In this document: positions 14,606-21,801 of the stretch, in pieces
Numbering within the stretch: the stretch's first letter is position 1
How the letters are laid out: each line of letters opens with the position of its first letter
Source of the DNA: Acidobacteria bacterium RIFCSPLOWO2_12_FULL_66_21
Lineage (GTDB): Bacteria > Acidobacteriota > Vicinamibacteria > Vicinamibacterales > 2-12-FULL-66-21
NCBI GenBank assembly: GCA_001767455.1
Contig: MELC01000039.1
Location: 1 to 64,000 of the forward strand
Direction of reading: 5' to 3'
Length of the DNA stretch: 64,000 nt
Position numbers and translations under genes: made by a program
The notes under the pieces: generated by a model
Told to the model about the DNA's origin: nothing
What the model saw: the letters and a program-made list of their open reading frames with translations, nothing else
Databases searched by the model: none

Positions 14606-15028
14606 ATGGACCAGCGACTTCGACTCGTGCAGGGCAACATTGGCCGGTCCGAGAAACGCGCGGCCGATCGACAGCCAATCTCCGTGCGCGGGCAGATTGT
14701 CTGGAAGGACGCGCGCGGCAGCACGCAGGTCACCTCGGTGATCACCCGCGACGCCAGCGAGCGCGGGGTCACCGTCGAGTGCGAGGGGGGCAGGGCAATC
14801 CCTCTCTATCGCCTGGTGTACTTCCAGGTCGACCGCGACTCGCGGCGACGGCCCGATCTGCCGGCTCCGCTCCGCAACCCGAGCGTCCTCTCGGCCGTGT
14901 TCCGCGTCGGCCCCTACAGCGAGGCCACCGGGTCGCCCGCGGAGTACGGTCTGCGTCTTCTGGTCGAACCTCAACCGGTATCCGCCTCGGGCTGGACGGC
15001 GCGGCTCGGAAAGATGGCGACAGCATGA
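14606..15028 (+). CDS. PilZ-like domain protein
   Basis: A 140-residue cytoplasmic protein. It contains RAADR followed about 25 residues later by DASERG, matching the PilZ cyclic-di-GMP signature R-x3-R ... (D/N)-x-S-x2-G, with alternating beta-strand-like segments between and after. Family knowledge suggests a c-di-GMP-responsive adaptor; the binding call rests only on this motif. Its stop overlaps the start of the downstream cupin gene (ATGA), so the two are translationally coupled. The 197 bases upstream hold AT-rich patches, including a TATACT at 14443-14448, but no clear promoter. Confidence 0.65.
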   Translation: MDQRLRLVQGNIGRSEKRAADRQPISVRGQIVWKDARGSTQVTSVITRDASERGVTVECEGGRAIPLYRLVYFQVDRDSRRRPDLPAPLRNPSVLSAVFRVGPYSEATGSPAEYGLRLLVEPQPVSASGWTARLGKMATA

Positions 15029-15438
15029 CTCCCTCGATTGCGACGGCGGCGCGGGCGTGGGAATCGTCGGGAGTGGCGGCAAGACTGAGGTCCAGCATGA
15101 TGTTGCTGATGCGAATCGACCGATGGGATGTGCGACGCGACGGGCCGCTGAGCGAGGCGGCACTTCAACGCAAGCTGCAGGCGCTGGGGTACCAGGTCAC
15201 CGCGCGGACCTACTCGTCCGGTTCGGCCTCGCCGACGTGTACCGACTCGAAGGAGCGGATCGAGGCCGTCGTGCACGGCCTGGTCAAGGTGAGCATCGAC
15301 GGCGAGGCGGCCATCCTCACCGCCGGTGACGTGGTCTACGTGCCGCGCGGCGCCGTGCGGCGGGTCGAGGTGGTCGGCACCAATTCGGCGCACTGTCTCG
15401 AGGCCGTCTACCAGACGGACGAAGACGAAGTCGCCTAG
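15025..15438 (+). CDS. Small cupin-domain protein
   Basis: A 137-residue protein whose C-terminal half has a cupin pattern: VHGLVKVSIDGEAAILTAGDVVYVPRG, then strands RRVEVVGTNSAHCLEAVY. The central G(X)5-6G-D-V-x-P-x-G motif is clear; the first motif is poorly preserved in metal-binding histidines, so it may not bind metal. Starts at ATG 15025, overlapping the PilZ gene stop by 4 bases. The N-terminal 50 residues (RIDRWDVRRDGPLSE...) are unique. Pairing with PilZ suggests a joint regulatory role, but no substrate can be named. It meets the TPR gene on the other strand tail to tail with a 4-base overlap. Confidence 0.7.
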   Translation: MTPSIATAARAWESSGVAARLRSSMMLLMRIDRWDVRRDGPLSEAALQRKLQALGYQVTARTYSSGSASPTCTDSKERIEAVVHGLVKVSIDGEAAILTAGDVVYVPRGAVRRVEVVGTNSAHCLEAVYQTDEDEVA

Positions 15439-16175
15439 CTTTTCTTCACGACCTCGAGGGCGCGGCGTGCATCCGCCGCGTACAGGGACTGCGGGAATTC
15501 CTCGACGATCCGCGTAAAGGCATGAGCCGCGTCGTCTTTCTTGCCCGCCTTGGCGTAGGCCCTGCCAAGCTGCATCAACACACCGTCCAGCGGGAGCTGC
15601 GAGTTCGAGTCGGTGGCCAGCTCCTGGCAGATCTTGATCGCCTGGTCGTACTTCCCCTGCGCGATCATGGCGTCGGCGAGTCCGAGGCGCGCGGTCCGTC
15701 CGTACACCCGGGAGCCGCCCTTGTCGATCACTTCCTGAAAGCGCTGTTCCGCTTCGGCGTGGCGCCCGAGCGCGGCGAGGATCCCGGCGGCGTGGTAGCG
15801 GGCGGCGATGCCGGCGTTGGTCCCGGCATAGCGGTCCGCCGCCTCGAGGAACCTCGGCAGCGCCGCCTCGATCTTCGCCTGTTCCGTCTGGAACGTGCCG
15901 GCCTGCGGGACCGGCATCGGGCTGCCGGGGGCGGGTGCCGTCACGGGCACGACGGGGGCTTGGTACACGGCAAGCGCCGAGGCGAGCAGCCCCTCCGCCT
16001 TCGCGTTTCGCGATTGCCGGTACCAGGTGTAGCCGCCAATCGCGGCAATCACGACCGCCGCGACCAGGATCGTGGTCGTGACGCCACGGGAACGCGCCTC
16101 GAGCATGTTTTTCGCGTGCGTGACCGTACGGGCGAACTCGTTTTCCTTCAGCTTGTGGCGCTCAGTTCTTTTCAT
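15435..16175 (-). CDS. Membrane-anchored TPR protein (YfgM-like)
   Basis: A 246-residue protein with a charged cytoplasmic start (MKRTERHKLKENEFARTV), one membrane helix (TTTILVAAVVIAAIGGYTW), and a periplasmic region with tetratricopeptide-like repeats, including AGILAALGRHAEAEQRFQEV, RLGLADAMIAQGKYDQAIKI and QLGRAYAKAGKKDDAAHAF. The layout resembles YfgM/TPR_21 proteins, which act near the Sec translocon or as envelope scaffolds. A TAGAAT box ends 9 bases before the ATG, so the mRNA may be nearly leaderless. The gene lies directly downstream of tRNA-Arg on the same strand. Confidence 0.75.
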   Translation of the reverse strand: MKRTERHKLKENEFARTVTHAKNMLEARSRGVTTTILVAAVVIAAIGGYTWYRQSRNAKAEGLLASALAVYQAPVVPVTAPAPGSPMPVPQAGTFQTEQAKIEAALPRFLEAADRYAGTNAGIAARYHAAGILAALGRHAEAEQRFQEVIDKGGSRVYGRTARLGLADAMIAQGKYDQAIKICQELATDSNSQLPLDGVLMQLGRAYAKAGKKDDAAHAFTRIVEEFPQSLYAADARRALEVVKKS

Positions 16176-16197: not shown

Positions 16198-16271
16198 CGC
16201 GCCCGGCAGGTCTCGAACCTGCGACCCCCAGTTTAGGAAACCGGTGCTCTGTCCTGCTGAGCTACGGGCGC
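16198..16271 (-). tRNA. tRNA-Arg (anticodon CCT)
   Basis: A full cloverleaf can be drawn: 7-bp acceptor stem GCGCCCG/CGGGCGC, D-arm GCTC...GAGC, anticodon stem CCGGT/ACTGG with loop TTCCTAA (anticodon CCT, reading AGG), and T-arm GCAGG-TTCGAGA-CCTGC. The discriminator base is G, and CCA is not encoded, so it must be added after transcription. The tRNA is followed on the same strand by the TPR gene. Confidence 0.97.
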
Positions 16272-16306
16272 AAAGGGAAACACAGCATTCTATCGCAGCT
16301 TTTGCG

Positions 16307-16335
16307 TTGACGCCTGACGAGCGGCTTCGTATAGT
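16307..16335 (+). promoter_or_regulatory. Near-consensus sigma70 promoter
   Basis: TTGACG at 16307-16312, a 17-base spacer, and TATAGT at 16330-16335. Each box matches 5 of 6 consensus bases. It lies between tRNA-Arg (opposite strand) and the ATG at 16352, implying a leader of about 9 bases without a Shine-Dalgarno. Confidence 0.75.
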
Positions 16336-16351
16336 CGAACGCCACGATCCC

Positions 16352-16648
16352 ATGTTCAGAACACCGTTTGTCTGGGAAGTGCAGGTCCGCCGAGAAGTCC
16401 TGGAAGCGGAAATCGCGCACTTGCGGGAACTGCCCTACAGCCTGTGGCGACAGGTGTTGTCACGGCCGATGACGAAGGCCACGCGCGGCCGCGACAACCG
16501 CAGTTATCGCGTCCGCACCACCGCCAAGTACGTGCAGGAAGGGGCGGACGACATCCGGGTCACTGTGGTGCTGGAAAGCGGCGCCTTGCGCCGCCACCTC
16601 ATGCGCCAGAGCTTTGTGATCACTCCCGACAACCGGTTTACAGACTAA
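16352..16648 (+). CDS. Unknown 98-residue protein
   Basis: I do not recognise this family. The sequence starts MFRTPFVWEVQVRREVLEAE, contains two basic patches (SRPMTKATRGRDNRSYRVRTTAKY) and a beta-rich second half (DDIRVTVVLESGALRRHLMRQSFVITPDN). The mix of a helix, a basic loop and strands is compatible with a small nucleic-acid-binding protein, but that is only a guess. Support for a real gene comes from the near-consensus promoter 16 bases upstream and coding-like third-position GC. It converges with apt on the other strand. Confidence 0.65.
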   Translation: MFRTPFVWEVQVRREVLEAEIAHLRELPYSLWRQVLSRPMTKATRGRDNRSYRVRTTAKYVQEGADDIRVTVVLESGALRRHLMRQSFVITPDNRFTD

Positions 16649-16664: not shown

Positions 16665-17180
16665 TCAGTACTGTAGGACCGCCATGATGTTCTCGCCGGG
16701 CAGGCGCGAGCGGCCATTCAGCCCGACGAGCTCGATCAGGAACGCGAGCCCTTCGACCTGCCCGCCGAGCTGCTTCACCAGATCGACGGTCGCTCGCGCG
16801 GTCCCTCCCGTCGCCAGCAGGTCGTCGACGATGAGGATGCGCTGTCCTTTCTCGATCGCGTCGCGATGGATCTCGAGGCTGTCGGTGCCGTACTCGAGCT
16901 CGTAGGTGGCCCGTACCGTCTCGGCCGGCAGCTTACCCAACTTGCGCACGGGCACGAACCCCGCTCCGATCCGATCGGCGACGGCGGCGCCCAGAATGAA
17001 GCCGCGGCTCTCGATTCCCACCACCGCGCTGATGGCCTTGTCCCCGTACGGCAGGGCCATCCTGTCAATCGTAAGCTTGAACCCCAGCGGATCGCGCAGC
17101 AGCGTCGTGACGTCGTAGAAGAGGATGCCGGCCTTGGGAAAGTCCGGCACGTGGCGAATCCGCGATTTCAGTTCCTGCAT
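16665..17180 (-). CDS. apt: Adenine phosphoribosyltransferase
   Basis: Purine salvage enzyme converting adenine and PRPP to AMP in the cytoplasm. The 171-residue protein aligns end to end with the family: RIRHVPDFPKAGILFYDVTTLL at the start, the substrate loop VVGIESRGFILGAAVA, and the PRPP-binding loop ILIVDDLLATGGTA. It ends with the family-typical FLIELVGLNGRSRL. Start ATG 17180. It is followed at a short distance upstream by the acylphosphatase gene on the same strand (27 bases apart), so the two may be co-transcribed. Confidence 0.96.
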   Translation of the reverse strand: MQELKSRIRHVPDFPKAGILFYDVTTLLRDPLGFKLTIDRMALPYGDKAISAVVGIESRGFILGAAVADRIGAGFVPVRKLGKLPAETVRATYELEYGTDSLEIHRDAIEKGQRILIVDDLLATGGTARATVDLVKQLGGQVEGLAFLIELVGLNGRSRLPGENIMAVLQY

Positions 17181-17207: not shown

Positions 17208-17483
17208 TCATGTGCGAATGGTGAATCCCGTGGCGCGCCCGCCCGGCACCACGTCCTCGACGACAAACGAGTCCACCCGCGCGCCGATTGGGCCGCGCGA
17301 GAGCGCCAGCTCAATCCGGTTCACCGATTCCTCGTCCCCTTCGACGAACGCTTCGACGCGGCCGTCGTCCAGATTCCGTACGTAGCCGTGGACGCCTTCG
17401 ATGGCCGCGCGCTCCTCGGCGAACAGGCGGAAGCCCACGCCCTGCACACGGCCGTCAATCAGGAACCGCCTCGCGACGATCAT
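17208..17483 (-). CDS. acyP: Acylphosphatase
   Basis: Small (91 residues) alpha/beta enzyme that hydrolyses acyl phosphates. The catalytic phosphate-binding loop is present as GRVQGVGFR, with its essential arginine, and the catalytic asparagine lies in GYVRNLDDGRVEAFVEG. Length is standard. A perfect TATAAT lies 11 bases before the ATG at 17483, predicting a leader of only about 5 bases. It sits upstream of apt on the same strand and diverges from the uricase-like gene. Confidence 0.93.
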   Translation of the reverse strand: MIVARRFLIDGRVQGVGFRLFAEERAAIEGVHGYVRNLDDGRVEAFVEGDEESVNRIELALSRGPIGARVDSFVVEDVVPGGRATGFTIRT

Positions 17484-17558: not shown

Positions 17559-18407
17559 ATGCCCCGCATCGGATCGAGTACTCACGGAGAATCACGCATC
17601 CGCCTTCTTCGCATCGTGCGGCGCGGCGATCGCCACGATCCGAAGGAACTGACCGTGTCGCTCCGCTTCGAAGGGGAGTTCGCGGCCGCGTTCCGCGATG
17701 GCCGGAGCGACCTGGTGCTGCCGGGCGAAACCCTGAAGACCCTCGTGCACGCCGCCGCGCGCAAGGCGGGCGACTCCGAGATCGAAGCCCTGGGATTGAT
17801 CCTCTGCGAGCGGATTCTCTCGAAGACCCCGAGGATCACACGCGCGCGGGTGGAGATTGCCGAGGAGAGCTGGACGCGCCTGCAGGCGCGTGGCAAGGCA
17901 CAAGGGCAGGCGTTCATGGCGGGCGGGTCCGCGCACAACAACGCGGTGATTACGAGCAACGGAGGTCAGACAGCGGTGGTCGCGGGCTTCGATCGCCTGC
18001 TGCTGATGCGCACGGCGGGCTTCGCGCCCTCACCGCGCGACGATGATGACGACGGGGTGTCGGACCGGCTGCAGCGGCTGCTTGTCGGATCGATGGATGC
18101 GCGATGGACCTATACCAGCGCCGACGTCACGTTCCGTCCGTACCGCGAGGGGGTGCGCGCCGCGATCATCGAGACGTTCGCCTGCCATGCGAGCGCGTCC
18201 GTGCAGCACACCTTGTACGCCATCGCCGATGTGATCCTCGCGACGTACGAGGAGATCGCGGACGTCACCCTGGCGTTCCACGAACATCCCTACCGGCCCG
18301 CGGATCTCTTCAGCGCCGGGATTGAGAATCCTGACGAGCTGTTCGTCGCGCTCGAGGAGCCGCTGAGCGTGGTCGAAGTGACCGTCGAGCGCGACGAATC
18401 GCGCTAG
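17559..18407 (+). CDS. Uricase-fold (urate oxidase-like) protein with substituted catalytic residues
   Basis: A 282-residue protein that aligns along its whole length with urate oxidase: LTVSLRFEGEF ... LKTLVHAAARK in the first T-fold unit; ARWTYTSADV, IETFACHASASVQHTLYAIADVIL and IENPDELFVALEEPLSVVEV in the second. By eye, however, the catalytic positions known from the Aspergillus flavus enzyme are changed: Lys10 is Glu (HGESRIR), Thr57 is Gly (LPGETLK), Asn254 is Glu and His256 is Pro (HEHPYRPADL). Gln228 is kept (SVQHT). So it may not oxidise urate, and I leave the symbol blank. No purine catabolic genes are adjacent. Start ATG 17559. Confidence 0.8.
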   Translation: MPRIGSSTHGESRIRLLRIVRRGDRHDPKELTVSLRFEGEFAAAFRDGRSDLVLPGETLKTLVHAAARKAGDSEIEALGLILCERILSKTPRITRARVEIAEESWTRLQARGKAQGQAFMAGGSAHNNAVITSNGGQTAVVAGFDRLLLMRTAGFAPSPRDDDDDGVSDRLQRLLVGSMDARWTYTSADVTFRPYREGVRAAIIETFACHASASVQHTLYAIADVILATYEEIADVTLAFHEHPYRPADLFSAGIENPDELFVALEEPLSVVEVTVERDESR

Positions 18408-21400
18408 AACCTGCTGGCGGTCTCCGCCGGGGGCGGCGGTACGCCGTCCTTCACCGGATCCAGCTTGCCGCCCGCGAGAAGCTTGTTCAGCGCCGCAAGA
18501 TCCGTCTTGACGAGCGCCTCGAGCTGCGCGATCTGCTTGTCGAGCCGCTCCGAGAGATCCTTGAACACCGTGGAGGCCTGGTCGGTCGGCTTGCCATCGC
18601 CGCTTTCCACGATGCCCTGCAGCGCCGCCAGCTTGTTGTTCAGTCGGATCGGGAAGTTCAGCGGATCCTGGCTGCTGCGGTTCCGGTACTGATAAACCTC
18701 CCCCTCCACGCCGGTCAGCTTCTCTGTCAAGGCCTCCCCCGCCGCTTTGATCTTCGCGTCGGGTGTCTTGCCGAGCCGATCGGCAATCTGATCCTTGAGA
18801 CTTCGGATCCGCAGCACGCTCTCGTTGGCGAGCGTCACCTTGTCGTTAATCTGCTTGGCGAGCTTGAACTGCTCCTGCAGATCGGCGTCGGTGACCGTCC
18901 TGACCGCCTCGTTGCGGCGAATCTGGACGTCGGCCGTCTTCGTCATCCCATTGGCGGTGAGCGTGACAGTGTACCGTCCGGGAGGGGCCATCGGACCGCG
19001 GGTGCTGCCCGCCCACATGATCAATCCTGGAAAGTCCCTCGCGCCCGGGTACCGCATGTCCCACGTGAAGCGGTTCATCCCCTGCTTGACCGGCACGCGC
19101 GCGGGCGGCGCGCCCCGGAATCCCTCCTCCCCGCCTTCGTCGGGCACCGCTCCCTCCGTCTTGGGCGGAGTCCCGGTGAACGTGCGCACCGAATGGCCGG
19201 CGGCGTCGACGATCTCGATCGTGACCTTGTCGGCCGCGTTCTTCAGGTAGTAGTCGATGGCCGCGCCCCGCGACACGGACCGCACGGCGTCAGCCGGCGC
19301 AAAGAGCGTGACCGGCTCGCTGGTCGTGTCGCGCGTCATCTGGCGCAGTACCGAAATGTTGTCCATCACATAAAAGGACCGGCCGTGGGTCGCGATGAGG
19401 AGATCGTTCCCCTTGATTTCGATCCCGTGAACCGGCGTCACCGGCAGCTCGAGCCGCAGCGACTGCCACGTGCCGCCGGCGTCGAACGACACGTGGATGC
19501 CGGTCTCCGTGCCGAGGAACAGGAGTCCCTTGCGCTTCTTGTCTTCGCGAATCACGCGGGCGAAATCGTCGCCGGCCAGGCCGCCCACGATCTTCGTCCA
19601 GGTCCGCCCGTAGTCGTTGGTCCTGTAAACGTAAGGACCGCGATCCGACAGTTGATAGCGATTGCCCGCCAGATACGCGGTCCCTGCATCGTGCGGCGAC
19701 GCTTCGATCAAGCTGATGCGCGTGAAATCGGGCAGATCCGGCGGCGTCACCTTCTGCCAGCTCTTTCCGCCATCGCGCGTCACGTGCACGTAGCCATCGT
19801 CGGATCCCGCCCAGATCACCGTGCCGTCGACCGGGCTCGGCGCGAGCGCGAAGATGACGGCATACGTCTCGACGCCGGTCTGATCCAGCGTGATGGGGCC
19901 GCCGGAGGGTCCGAGCGTCGACGGATCGTGCCGCGACAGGTCGGGACTGATGCGCTCCCATGACTGCCCCTCGTTGGTGGTCTTCCACACGTGCTGCGAC
20001 GTGACGTAGAGCGTGTTCGGATCGGTGGGCGCGATGACGATCGGGTACGTCCACTGAAAGCGCTCCGTGATGTCTCCAGACGAGAAGCCCATGGGGTTGT
20101 CCGGCCAGACGTTGATCGCGCGGACCTCGCCGGTGCGGCGGTTCACGCGCGTCAGGAGACCGCCGTAGCTGCCGGCGTAGAAGACGTCGGTGTCTTCGGG
20201 GTCGGGCGCGATGTAACCGCTCTCTCCCCCGCCGACGTCATAGAGCCTTCCGTCGCCGACGCTGGACACGCACGCCGTGCTGTTGTCCTGCTGCGCGCCG
20301 CAGACGTGATACGGCACGTGCGCGGTCGCGATCACGTTGTAGAACTGCGCCGTGGGAAAGTCCTGATCCGTCCACGTCTCGCCGGCATTGGTGGAGACGT
20401 TCGCGCCGCCGTCGTTGCCGTTGATCATCCGCGTCGGATCGTTCGAGGCGATCCAGAGATCGTGATTGTCCCCGTGGGGCACGCGGATCGCGCGGAGCGT
20501 CCTGCCGGCGTCGGTCGATCGGTACATGCCCGTGTTCAGGACGTAGACCGTGTCCTTCACCTGCGGGTCGGCGTAGATGCGCGTGTAGTAGAACGCCCGC
20601 TGACGGATGCGGCGATCGTCGTTGGTCATCTTCCACGTCGTTCCGCCGTCGTCGGACAGGAACATCCCGCCGGAGGCGGCCTCGATTATCGCGTAAACCC
20701 GGTTGGGGTCGGCAGCCGACACGGAGACGCCGATCTTTCCCCAGATCCTCGGCGGCAGGCCGCTGTTCTTCGTCAGGTCGGTCCAGGTCTTGCCGCCATC
20801 GACGGTCTTGTACAGCCCGCCGCCGGGCCCTCCGCTCGAGAGCGAATACGGCGTCCGGAACACTTCCCACAGACCGGCATACAGCACGTCGGGGTTCTTC
20901 GTATCGAGCGACAGGTCGACCGCGCCAGTCTTTTCGTCGTGAAAGAGAACGCGGTTCCAGGTCTTGCCGCCGTCGGTGCTCTTGAACACACCGCGGTCCG
21001 GGTTGGGGCCGTACGGATTGCCGAGCGCCGCGACGTAGACGATGTCCGGGTTGGCCGGGTGAACGCGTATGCGCGCGATTGCCTTCGTCTTGTCGAGGCC
21101 GACATGCGTCCATGTCTTGCCGGCGTCCGTACTCTTGTACACGCCATCGCCCTGAATGATGTTGCCGCGCAGCTCCGTCTCACCCGTGCCGGCGTACACG
21201 ACGTCGGGATTCGATTCCGACACCGCCACCGTGCCGACCGATGATGTCTTGAAGAAGCGATCCGACACCGCTCGCCATGTGACGCCGCCATCTGTCGTCT
21301 TCCACAACCCCCCGCCCGTGGCGCCGAAGTAGTACTCCAGCGGACGGCTTGCGCTGCCGGCGACCGCCTGCGAGCGTCCTCCCCGCGCCGGACCGATCGA

Positions 21401-21565
21401 GCGCCATCGGAGGCCCGCAAGAAGCGCCGGCTCCATGCCGGCTGCCGCACGCGGCGTGGACGCGGACTGCGCACGAACAGCGGGTGCGAAGGTGACGCCA
21501 GCGGCGACGATGGCGAGAGCGATCGTGCTCGTAACGAAAGCCACGCAACGGTGATGTGTCCGCAT
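18404..21565 (-). CDS. Secreted sortilin/VPS10-like BNR-repeat protein
   Basis: A 1053-residue exported protein. A signal peptide (STIALAIVAAGVTFAPAVRA) is followed by at least ten BNR/Asp-box repeats of the S/T-x-D-G-G-x-T-W type (TTDGGVTWRAV, STDAGKTWTHV, STDGGKTWNRV, TVDGGKTWTDL, TRDGGKSWQKV and others), forming a VPS10/sortilin-like propeller. A C-terminal beta-sandwich-like region and helical segment follow. Such proteins are often labelled glycosyl hydrolase, but I see no catalytic residues that prove hydrolysis. The ATG at 21565 has a good Shine-Dalgarno (AGGAGA). It converges with the uricase-like gene, overlapping its last 4 bases. Confidence 0.85.
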   Translation of the reverse strand: MRTHHRCVAFVTSTIALAIVAAGVTFAPAVRAQSASTPRAAAGMEPALLAGLRWRSIGPARGGRSQAVAGSASRPLEYYFGATGGGLWKTTDGGVTWRAVSDRFFKTSSVGTVAVSESNPDVVYAGTGETELRGNIIQGDGVYKSTDAGKTWTHVGLDKTKAIARIRVHPANPDIVYVAALGNPYGPNPDRGVFKSTDGGKTWNRVLFHDEKTGAVDLSLDTKNPDVLYAGLWEVFRTPYSLSSGGPGGGLYKTVDGGKTWTDLTKNSGLPPRIWGKIGVSVSAADPNRVYAIIEAASGGMFLSDDGGTTWKMTNDDRRIRQRAFYYTRIYADPQVKDTVYVLNTGMYRSTDAGRTLRAIRVPHGDNHDLWIASNDPTRMINGNDGGANVSTNAGETWTDQDFPTAQFYNVIATAHVPYHVCGAQQDNSTACVSSVGDGRLYDVGGGESGYIAPDPEDTDVFYAGSYGGLLTRVNRRTGEVRAINVWPDNPMGFSSGDITERFQWTYPIVIAPTDPNTLYVTSQHVWKTTNEGQSWERISPDLSRHDPSTLGPSGGPITLDQTGVETYAVIFALAPSPVDGTVIWAGSDDGYVHVTRDGGKSWQKVTPPDLPDFTRISLIEASPHDAGTAYLAGNRYQLSDRGPYVYRTNDYGRTWTKIVGGLAGDDFARVIREDKKRKGLLFLGTETGIHVSFDAGGTWQSLRLELPVTPVHGIEIKGNDLLIATHGRSFYVMDNISVLRQMTRDTTSEPVTLFAPADAVRSVSRGAAIDYYLKNAADKVTIEIVDAAGHSVRTFTGTPPKTEGAVPDEGGEEGFRGAPPARVPVKQGMNRFTWDMRYPGARDFPGLIMWAGSTRGPMAPPGRYTVTLTANGMTKTADVQIRRNEAVRTVTDADLQEQFKLAKQINDKVTLANESVLRIRSLKDQIADRLGKTPDAKIKAAGEALTEKLTGVEGEVYQYRNRSSQDPLNFPIRLNNKLAALQGIVESGDGKPTDQASTVFKDLSERLDKQIAQLEALVKTDLAALNKLLAGGKLDPVKDGVPPPPAETASRF

Positions 21566-21801
21566 GGAGCTTCTCTCCTCGAAAGGAATCCGCATCGAGA
21601 CCCGCACATCCTATCGGAGGACACCGGGGCCGACAAGGCGGCGCGTCATATGCGCCGTCGAGGCGGCTCAACTGCGCAAAGGTGGGTAGGCAGTGACGTA
21701 CCACGGCCGAGCACAGAGTGTAAGCCCTTGAATATGAAGCTGTTGAGCCGCTCGGCCCGCGCGGCATGCCTTGTGCTCAATACGTACGCAGGAGGGGGAA
21801 A

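Follow-up and report, generated by a model that had tools for sequence, protein, structure and literature searches.

Within the window, the 64,000-nucleotide stretch of an acidobacterial contig (MELC01000039.1) analysed here, one gene encodes a protein that resembles urate oxidase and appears to lack the residues with which that enzyme works, which raises the question of whether the protein still oxidises urate and, if not, what it has been kept for. Uricase is a textbook cofactor-free oxidase with therapeutic use, and a natural clade that keeps its fold and drops its chemistry illustrates the way in which an active site of this kind can disappear and perhaps be put to new use. We regard it as probable that the window protein is an apt-linked uricase paralogue in which urate oxidation was lost early and which has been retained for another role.

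Reading frame, homology and predicted fold

The 282-aa frame opens with ATG at 17559, ends with the stop at 18407 and contains no internal stop in the translation of the window. An in-frame upstream extension to 16866 overlaps acyP and apt on the opposite strand, and homologues begin at the same site (MPRI, MPKI or MALI), so that the start at 17559 is favoured. A wholly different family encoded on the minus strand was considered and rejected, as that strand has no long frame and the gene is interrupted by stops when read on it. The gene and its neighbours are as follows:

15435..16175, minus strand: TPR protein (YfgM-like), next conserved gene of the block (PF09976; synteny)
16665..17180, minus strand: apt, adenine phosphoribosyltransferase (named from sequence), conserved neighbour (PF00156, E=4.4e-13; synteny)
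17211..17483, minus strand: acyP, acylphosphatase, conserved neighbour (Pfam PF00708, E=6.2e-21; synteny)
17559..18407, plus strand: apt-linked uricase-like protein, 282 aa, urate oxidase catalytic residues replaced (ORF, profiles, alignment, model)
18404..21607, minus strand: Sortilin-Vps10/BNR-repeat protein, conserved neighbour in the window's family (PF15902, E=5.2e-36; synteny)

Homology to urate oxidase is full-length and far beyond chance: the window protein matched Pfam Uricase (PF01014, E=1.2e-23), PDB entry 7f2v (E=1.1e-37, covering residues 4-280) and TIGR03383 urate_oxi (E=1.1e-46), in the last case with 159.5 bits, below the curated NCBIfam equivalog cut-off of 168.4. The original prediction of a uricase-like fold agreed with superposition of an AlphaFold2 monomer model (pLDDT 82.2, pTM 0.79), which matched urate oxidases best (chain 7f2v, Z 25.9, 273 residues, rmsd 4.4), followed by GTP cyclohydrolase IB (Z 14.6) and dihydroneopterin aldolase (Z 12.5). 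GTP cyclohydrolase IB (FolE2) is likewise a two-repeat T-fold monomer, with no sequence match seen. Judging from the family, the protein would be expected to assemble as a tetrameric T-fold barrel. Low pLDDT of the loop 156-171 was considered as a sign of disorder and dropped, since a canonical uricase control at equal alignment depth shows the same.

Replacement of the active-site residues

Active-site residues are numbered here as in A. flavus urate oxidase, in which the ligand is held by Thr57, Asp58, Arg176, Val227 and Gln228, Phe159 stacks against the ligand, and Lys10, Thr57, Asn254 and His256 form the wall of the cavity in which the catalytic water lies (PMC7792999). Residues were compared in an alignment of 57 proteins, including 44 reference uricases and 11 apt-linked copies. 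The four exchanges originally proposed, Lys10 to Glu, Thr57 to Gly, Asn254 to Glu and His256 to Pro, were all recovered (E11, G56, E242 and P244), and Asp58 was also altered, to Glu57. The positions concerned are:

17589..17591, plus strand: Glu11 codon, replacing Lys10 (alignment)
17724..17729, plus strand: Gly56-Glu57 codons, replacing Thr57-Asp58 (alignment)
18009..18074, plus strand: codons 151-172, an acidic, variable, low-confidence segment replacing the substrate loop with Phe159 and Leu170 (alignment, model)
18201..18209, plus strand: Val215-Gln216-His217 codons, Gln216 aligning with Gln228 (alignment)
18282..18290, plus strand: Glu242-His243-Pro244 codons, replacing Asn254-Lys255-His256 (alignment)

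Phe159 and Leu170 are gone together with the whole substrate loop, whose motif K-x3-S-x-F-x-GF-x-RD-x2-TTL-x-ET-x-DR is replaced, the alignment within the loop being uncertain. The earlier claim that only Gln228 had been kept stood as far as Gln228 itself is concerned, but this residue is not the sole survivor, as Ser226, Val227, Gly9 and an Arg aligned with Arg176 (motif LQRLL) are present too. Neither Arg176 nor Gln228 is fixed among sister proteins, in which Pro occurs at 176 (L034, L036) and Arg or His at 228 (L004 and L036). Lys, Thr or Asn at shifted positions, the circumstance under which the idea of a lost active site was to be given up, did not appear in the alignment. As far as aligned residues can tell, urate chemistry and most of the substrate grip have been lost, save Gln228 and the aligned Arg176.

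Measured against urate oxidase (Uox, PucL C-terminal; PF01014, TIGR03383; 7f2v, 1vax, A. flavus 1r4s), the protein therefore combines a tandem T-fold monomer of full-length homology, which shares Gly9, Ser226-Val227-Gln228 and the core Trp, Phe and Arg residues (G10, E76, W105, F119, G143, W183, R200 and D249-L250 being as in uricases), with replacement of Lys10, Thr57, Asp58, Phe159, Leu170, Asn254 and His256, a different neighbourhood and a score below the TIGR03383 cut-off. Thr57, Asp58, Asn254 and His256 were kept in all 44 reference uricases and Lys10 in 43, the remaining one being truncated there, whereas none of the 11 apt-linked copies had Thr57, Asn254 or His256, and a single one (L039, genome G440) kept Lys10 and Asp58. 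Where uricases are at least 95% conserved, the residue was lost at 7 of 10 pocket positions versus 13 of 42 positions elsewhere (Fisher p=0.029, with sites that are not independent and loop sites counted on both sides).

Within the window's family (f1), the new residues E/G/E/E/P (E11, G56, E57, E242 and P244) occurred in seven or all of the eight complete copies, with at most one exception per site, among members whose identity to the window protein is as low as 52%. This conservation is not exceptional on its own, because about 40% of f1 columns (114 of 282) are conserved in at least seven of eight. The same sites read K/A/D/T/E in family f92, and in family f4 there is T at 10 and H-E at 57-58, the last segment being divergent.

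An orthologous group beside apt and the urate pathway of its genomes

Uricase searches covered a sample of the phylum, the order and the family. Twelve genomes of the window's order carry the gene, as 11 complete copies and one fragment at a contig end; family f1 accounts for eight complete copies, the window protein among them, and for the fragment, f92 for one copy (G440) and f4 for two (G253, G041). A search for related loci from the single window protein found no relative, and one with the clade alignment returned public copies of the same genomes and two canonical uricases (L127 from Thermoanaerobaculia and L130 from Chloroflexi). The complete copies formed one clade with support of 95/91, or 96/92 without the pocket columns, and the family tree proposed with the original prediction thus placed the changes as near-fixed in f1 and as part of an older clade. 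The apt-linked proteins are orthologues of one another that share common descent with urate oxidase, and in these searches they were confined to a single order of soil Acidobacteria; within the known uricase family they represent a conserved, locus-fixed and catalytically dismantled paralogue.

The long stem branches of this clade (0.82 changes per column for f1, 1.72 for f4), together with the lack of the gene in some f1 genomes such as G362, might suggest a decaying relic or pseudogene. This reading, to which we assign very little probability, is already contradicted by selection: the frame is open at full length in 11 genomes, codon-position GC is normal, and pairwise dN/dS is well below 1, with 0.08-0.44 in closer apt-linked pairs versus 0.18-0.19 in canonical pairs (similar or somewhat higher, dS being near saturation in several pairs). 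With such ratios, the protein is maintained under purifying selection.

The statement that no purine breakdown genes are adjacent was literally right, but apt, a gene of purine salvage, lies two genes upstream. Both acyP and apt adjoin every one of the 11 complete copies, joined usually by the TPR gene and, in f1, by the Vps10/BNR gene. In the order's canonical uricases every catalytic residue is retained, and almost all of their genes have HIU hydrolase, OHCU decarboxylase or allantoicase as a neighbour. As a hint of purine salvage the link to apt is weak, since conservation extends to the entire surrounding block and the link may only mirror this. In seven genomes the gene and acyP are transcribed divergently; in four they run in the same direction, 1-166 bp apart (1-14 bp in G348, G400 and G401). 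Relative to acyP-apt, the uricase-like gene is flipped into a codirectional cluster in G348 and G400-G402 (L074-L077, compared with the window and L078-L083), an event that apparently happened twice independently. Two small ORFs on the plus strand (14606-15028 and 16244-16648) are also conserved in the block of relatives and have no Pfam match.

A search of the window genome (G000; 6.5 Mb, 91 contigs) found no second uricase, PuuD, HIU hydrolase or OHCU decarboxylase, so that a product of urate oxidation would lack a known onward route. Canonical uricase was likewise not found in G348, G396, G403 and G404, which have the PuuD-type urate oxidase (PF06181) in its place, inside a purine cluster in G348, G403 and G404; G399-G402 hold both the apt-linked protein and canonical uox. 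With another urate oxidase in relatives and no pathway in the window genome, the apt-linked protein is not needed as the pathway's urate oxidase in these f1 genomes. The protein could still be a urate oxidase that works through different residues, for which the retained Gln228 and aligned Arg176 might speak, but it lacks the entire proton relay, the stacking Phe and the residues of the peroxo hole (roles: PMC7792999), other urate oxidases serve the relatives and the downstream steps are absent from the window genome, so that we hold this to be the most improbable of the readings considered. From the residues, the locus, the other urate oxidases in relatives and the absent pathway, we infer that the window protein almost certainly does not oxidise urate. 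Separately, at L089, L090 and L091 a PuuD-type membrane urate oxidase sits in the purine cluster where sister f1 genomes carry canonical uox, which amounts to a replacement within one family.

Candidate roles of the retained protein

The original prediction offered two possibilities, a T-fold protein that has acquired a new ligand or reaction and a scaffold, and in this general form it is supported by the fold match, the lost residues and the clade. As we picture the former, the protein would still assemble as a T-fold barrel and would use a remodelled inter-subunit pocket, formed by Glu11, Gly56-Glu57, Glu242, Pro244 and Arg246 with Gln216, for a different task. Most likely, it would bind some other small heterocycle or carry out acid-base chemistry on it without oxidation, possibly together with Apt in the salvage of purines. 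A new T-fold enzyme or sensor may tentatively be proposed to have arisen from urate oxidase in this way, the oxygen-activating site having become a conserved acidic one (Glu-Gly-Glu-Glu-Pro) for a purine- or pterin-like ligand, alongside adenine salvage.

Alternatively, the protein may be a pseudoenzyme kept solely as a structural or regulatory scaffold, a T-fold barrel with its old pocket empty that acts through protein contacts. We think this rather unlikely, although the old pocket residues vary among f1, f92 and f4, the substrate loop is variable and the core residues listed above are retained as in uricases. An obligatory heteromer with canonical uricase is impossible in G000 and the four genomes with PuuD in its place, which have none, and the near-fixation of the new pocket residues within f1 favours a new ligand or acid-base reaction, whereas the exchange of these residues for others in f92 and f4 speaks for a relaxed pocket with a structural role; the exchange is as compatible with looser constraint on the old pocket as with a new function. 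On balance, we put a new ligand or reaction somewhat ahead of a structural role.

Another alternative is that the protein stands in for dihydroneopterin aldolase (FolB, PF02152) and fills a gap in folate synthesis, with a pterin as the substrate of its N-terminal T-fold repeat. In f1 genomes there is an apparent gap at this step, with HPPK found in most of them (10 of 12) and FolB missing from most genomes of the order. The sole full-length PTPS, read in ten f1 genomes, has the QueD motif CxxxHGH and not ExxHGH (motifs from PMC5041015), and the PTPS-III type, which bypasses FolB, was not found among the f1 genomes examined. No separate FolB was found in the 12 carrier genomes, versus about 40 of 150 others that have one (Fisher p 0.04, kinship ignored). 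Beyond the shared T-fold, a weak and repeated match of the FolB profile to the N-terminal repeat was seen in 9 of 11 apt-linked proteins (best 1.1e-9) versus 4 of 11 canonical uricases (best 8.8e-4), a comparison of profiles against FolB from the order itself gave a probability of 93% for the apt-linked proteins versus 27% for canonical uricases, and the G404 protein, as the only one in the genome search, passed the Pfam cut-off (34.1 versus 31.8 bits), which the window protein did not reach (20.8 bits).

Catalysis in FolB depends on a Lys (Lys100 in S. aureus) and Tyr54, but these align with Glu102 and Gly56 of the window protein and are thus both absent, while the anchoring Glu aligns with Glu76, which uricases have as well. 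The protein further differs from FolB in its two fused repeats, and in structure comparison uricases ranked far above FolB (Z 25.9 versus 12.5). Most genomes of the order have neither FolB nor the gene (G362, where HPPK is present, is an example), so in them the gap is filled by something else. Taken together, these points make a FolB substitute quite improbable, and the preferred reading remains that of an apt-linked uricase paralogue kept for a role other than urate oxidation.

A full-text search of the open-licence literature found no paper on a uricase pseudoenzyme and nothing direct on T-fold paralogues or K10/T57 mutants. Uricase matches in Acidobacteria may carry a wrong annotation. The f4 orthologue (L031/L082 and L032/L083) is more divergent still, with Gln228 changed to Pro and the loop deleted, and dN/dS between its two copies (G253 versus G041) is 0.08.
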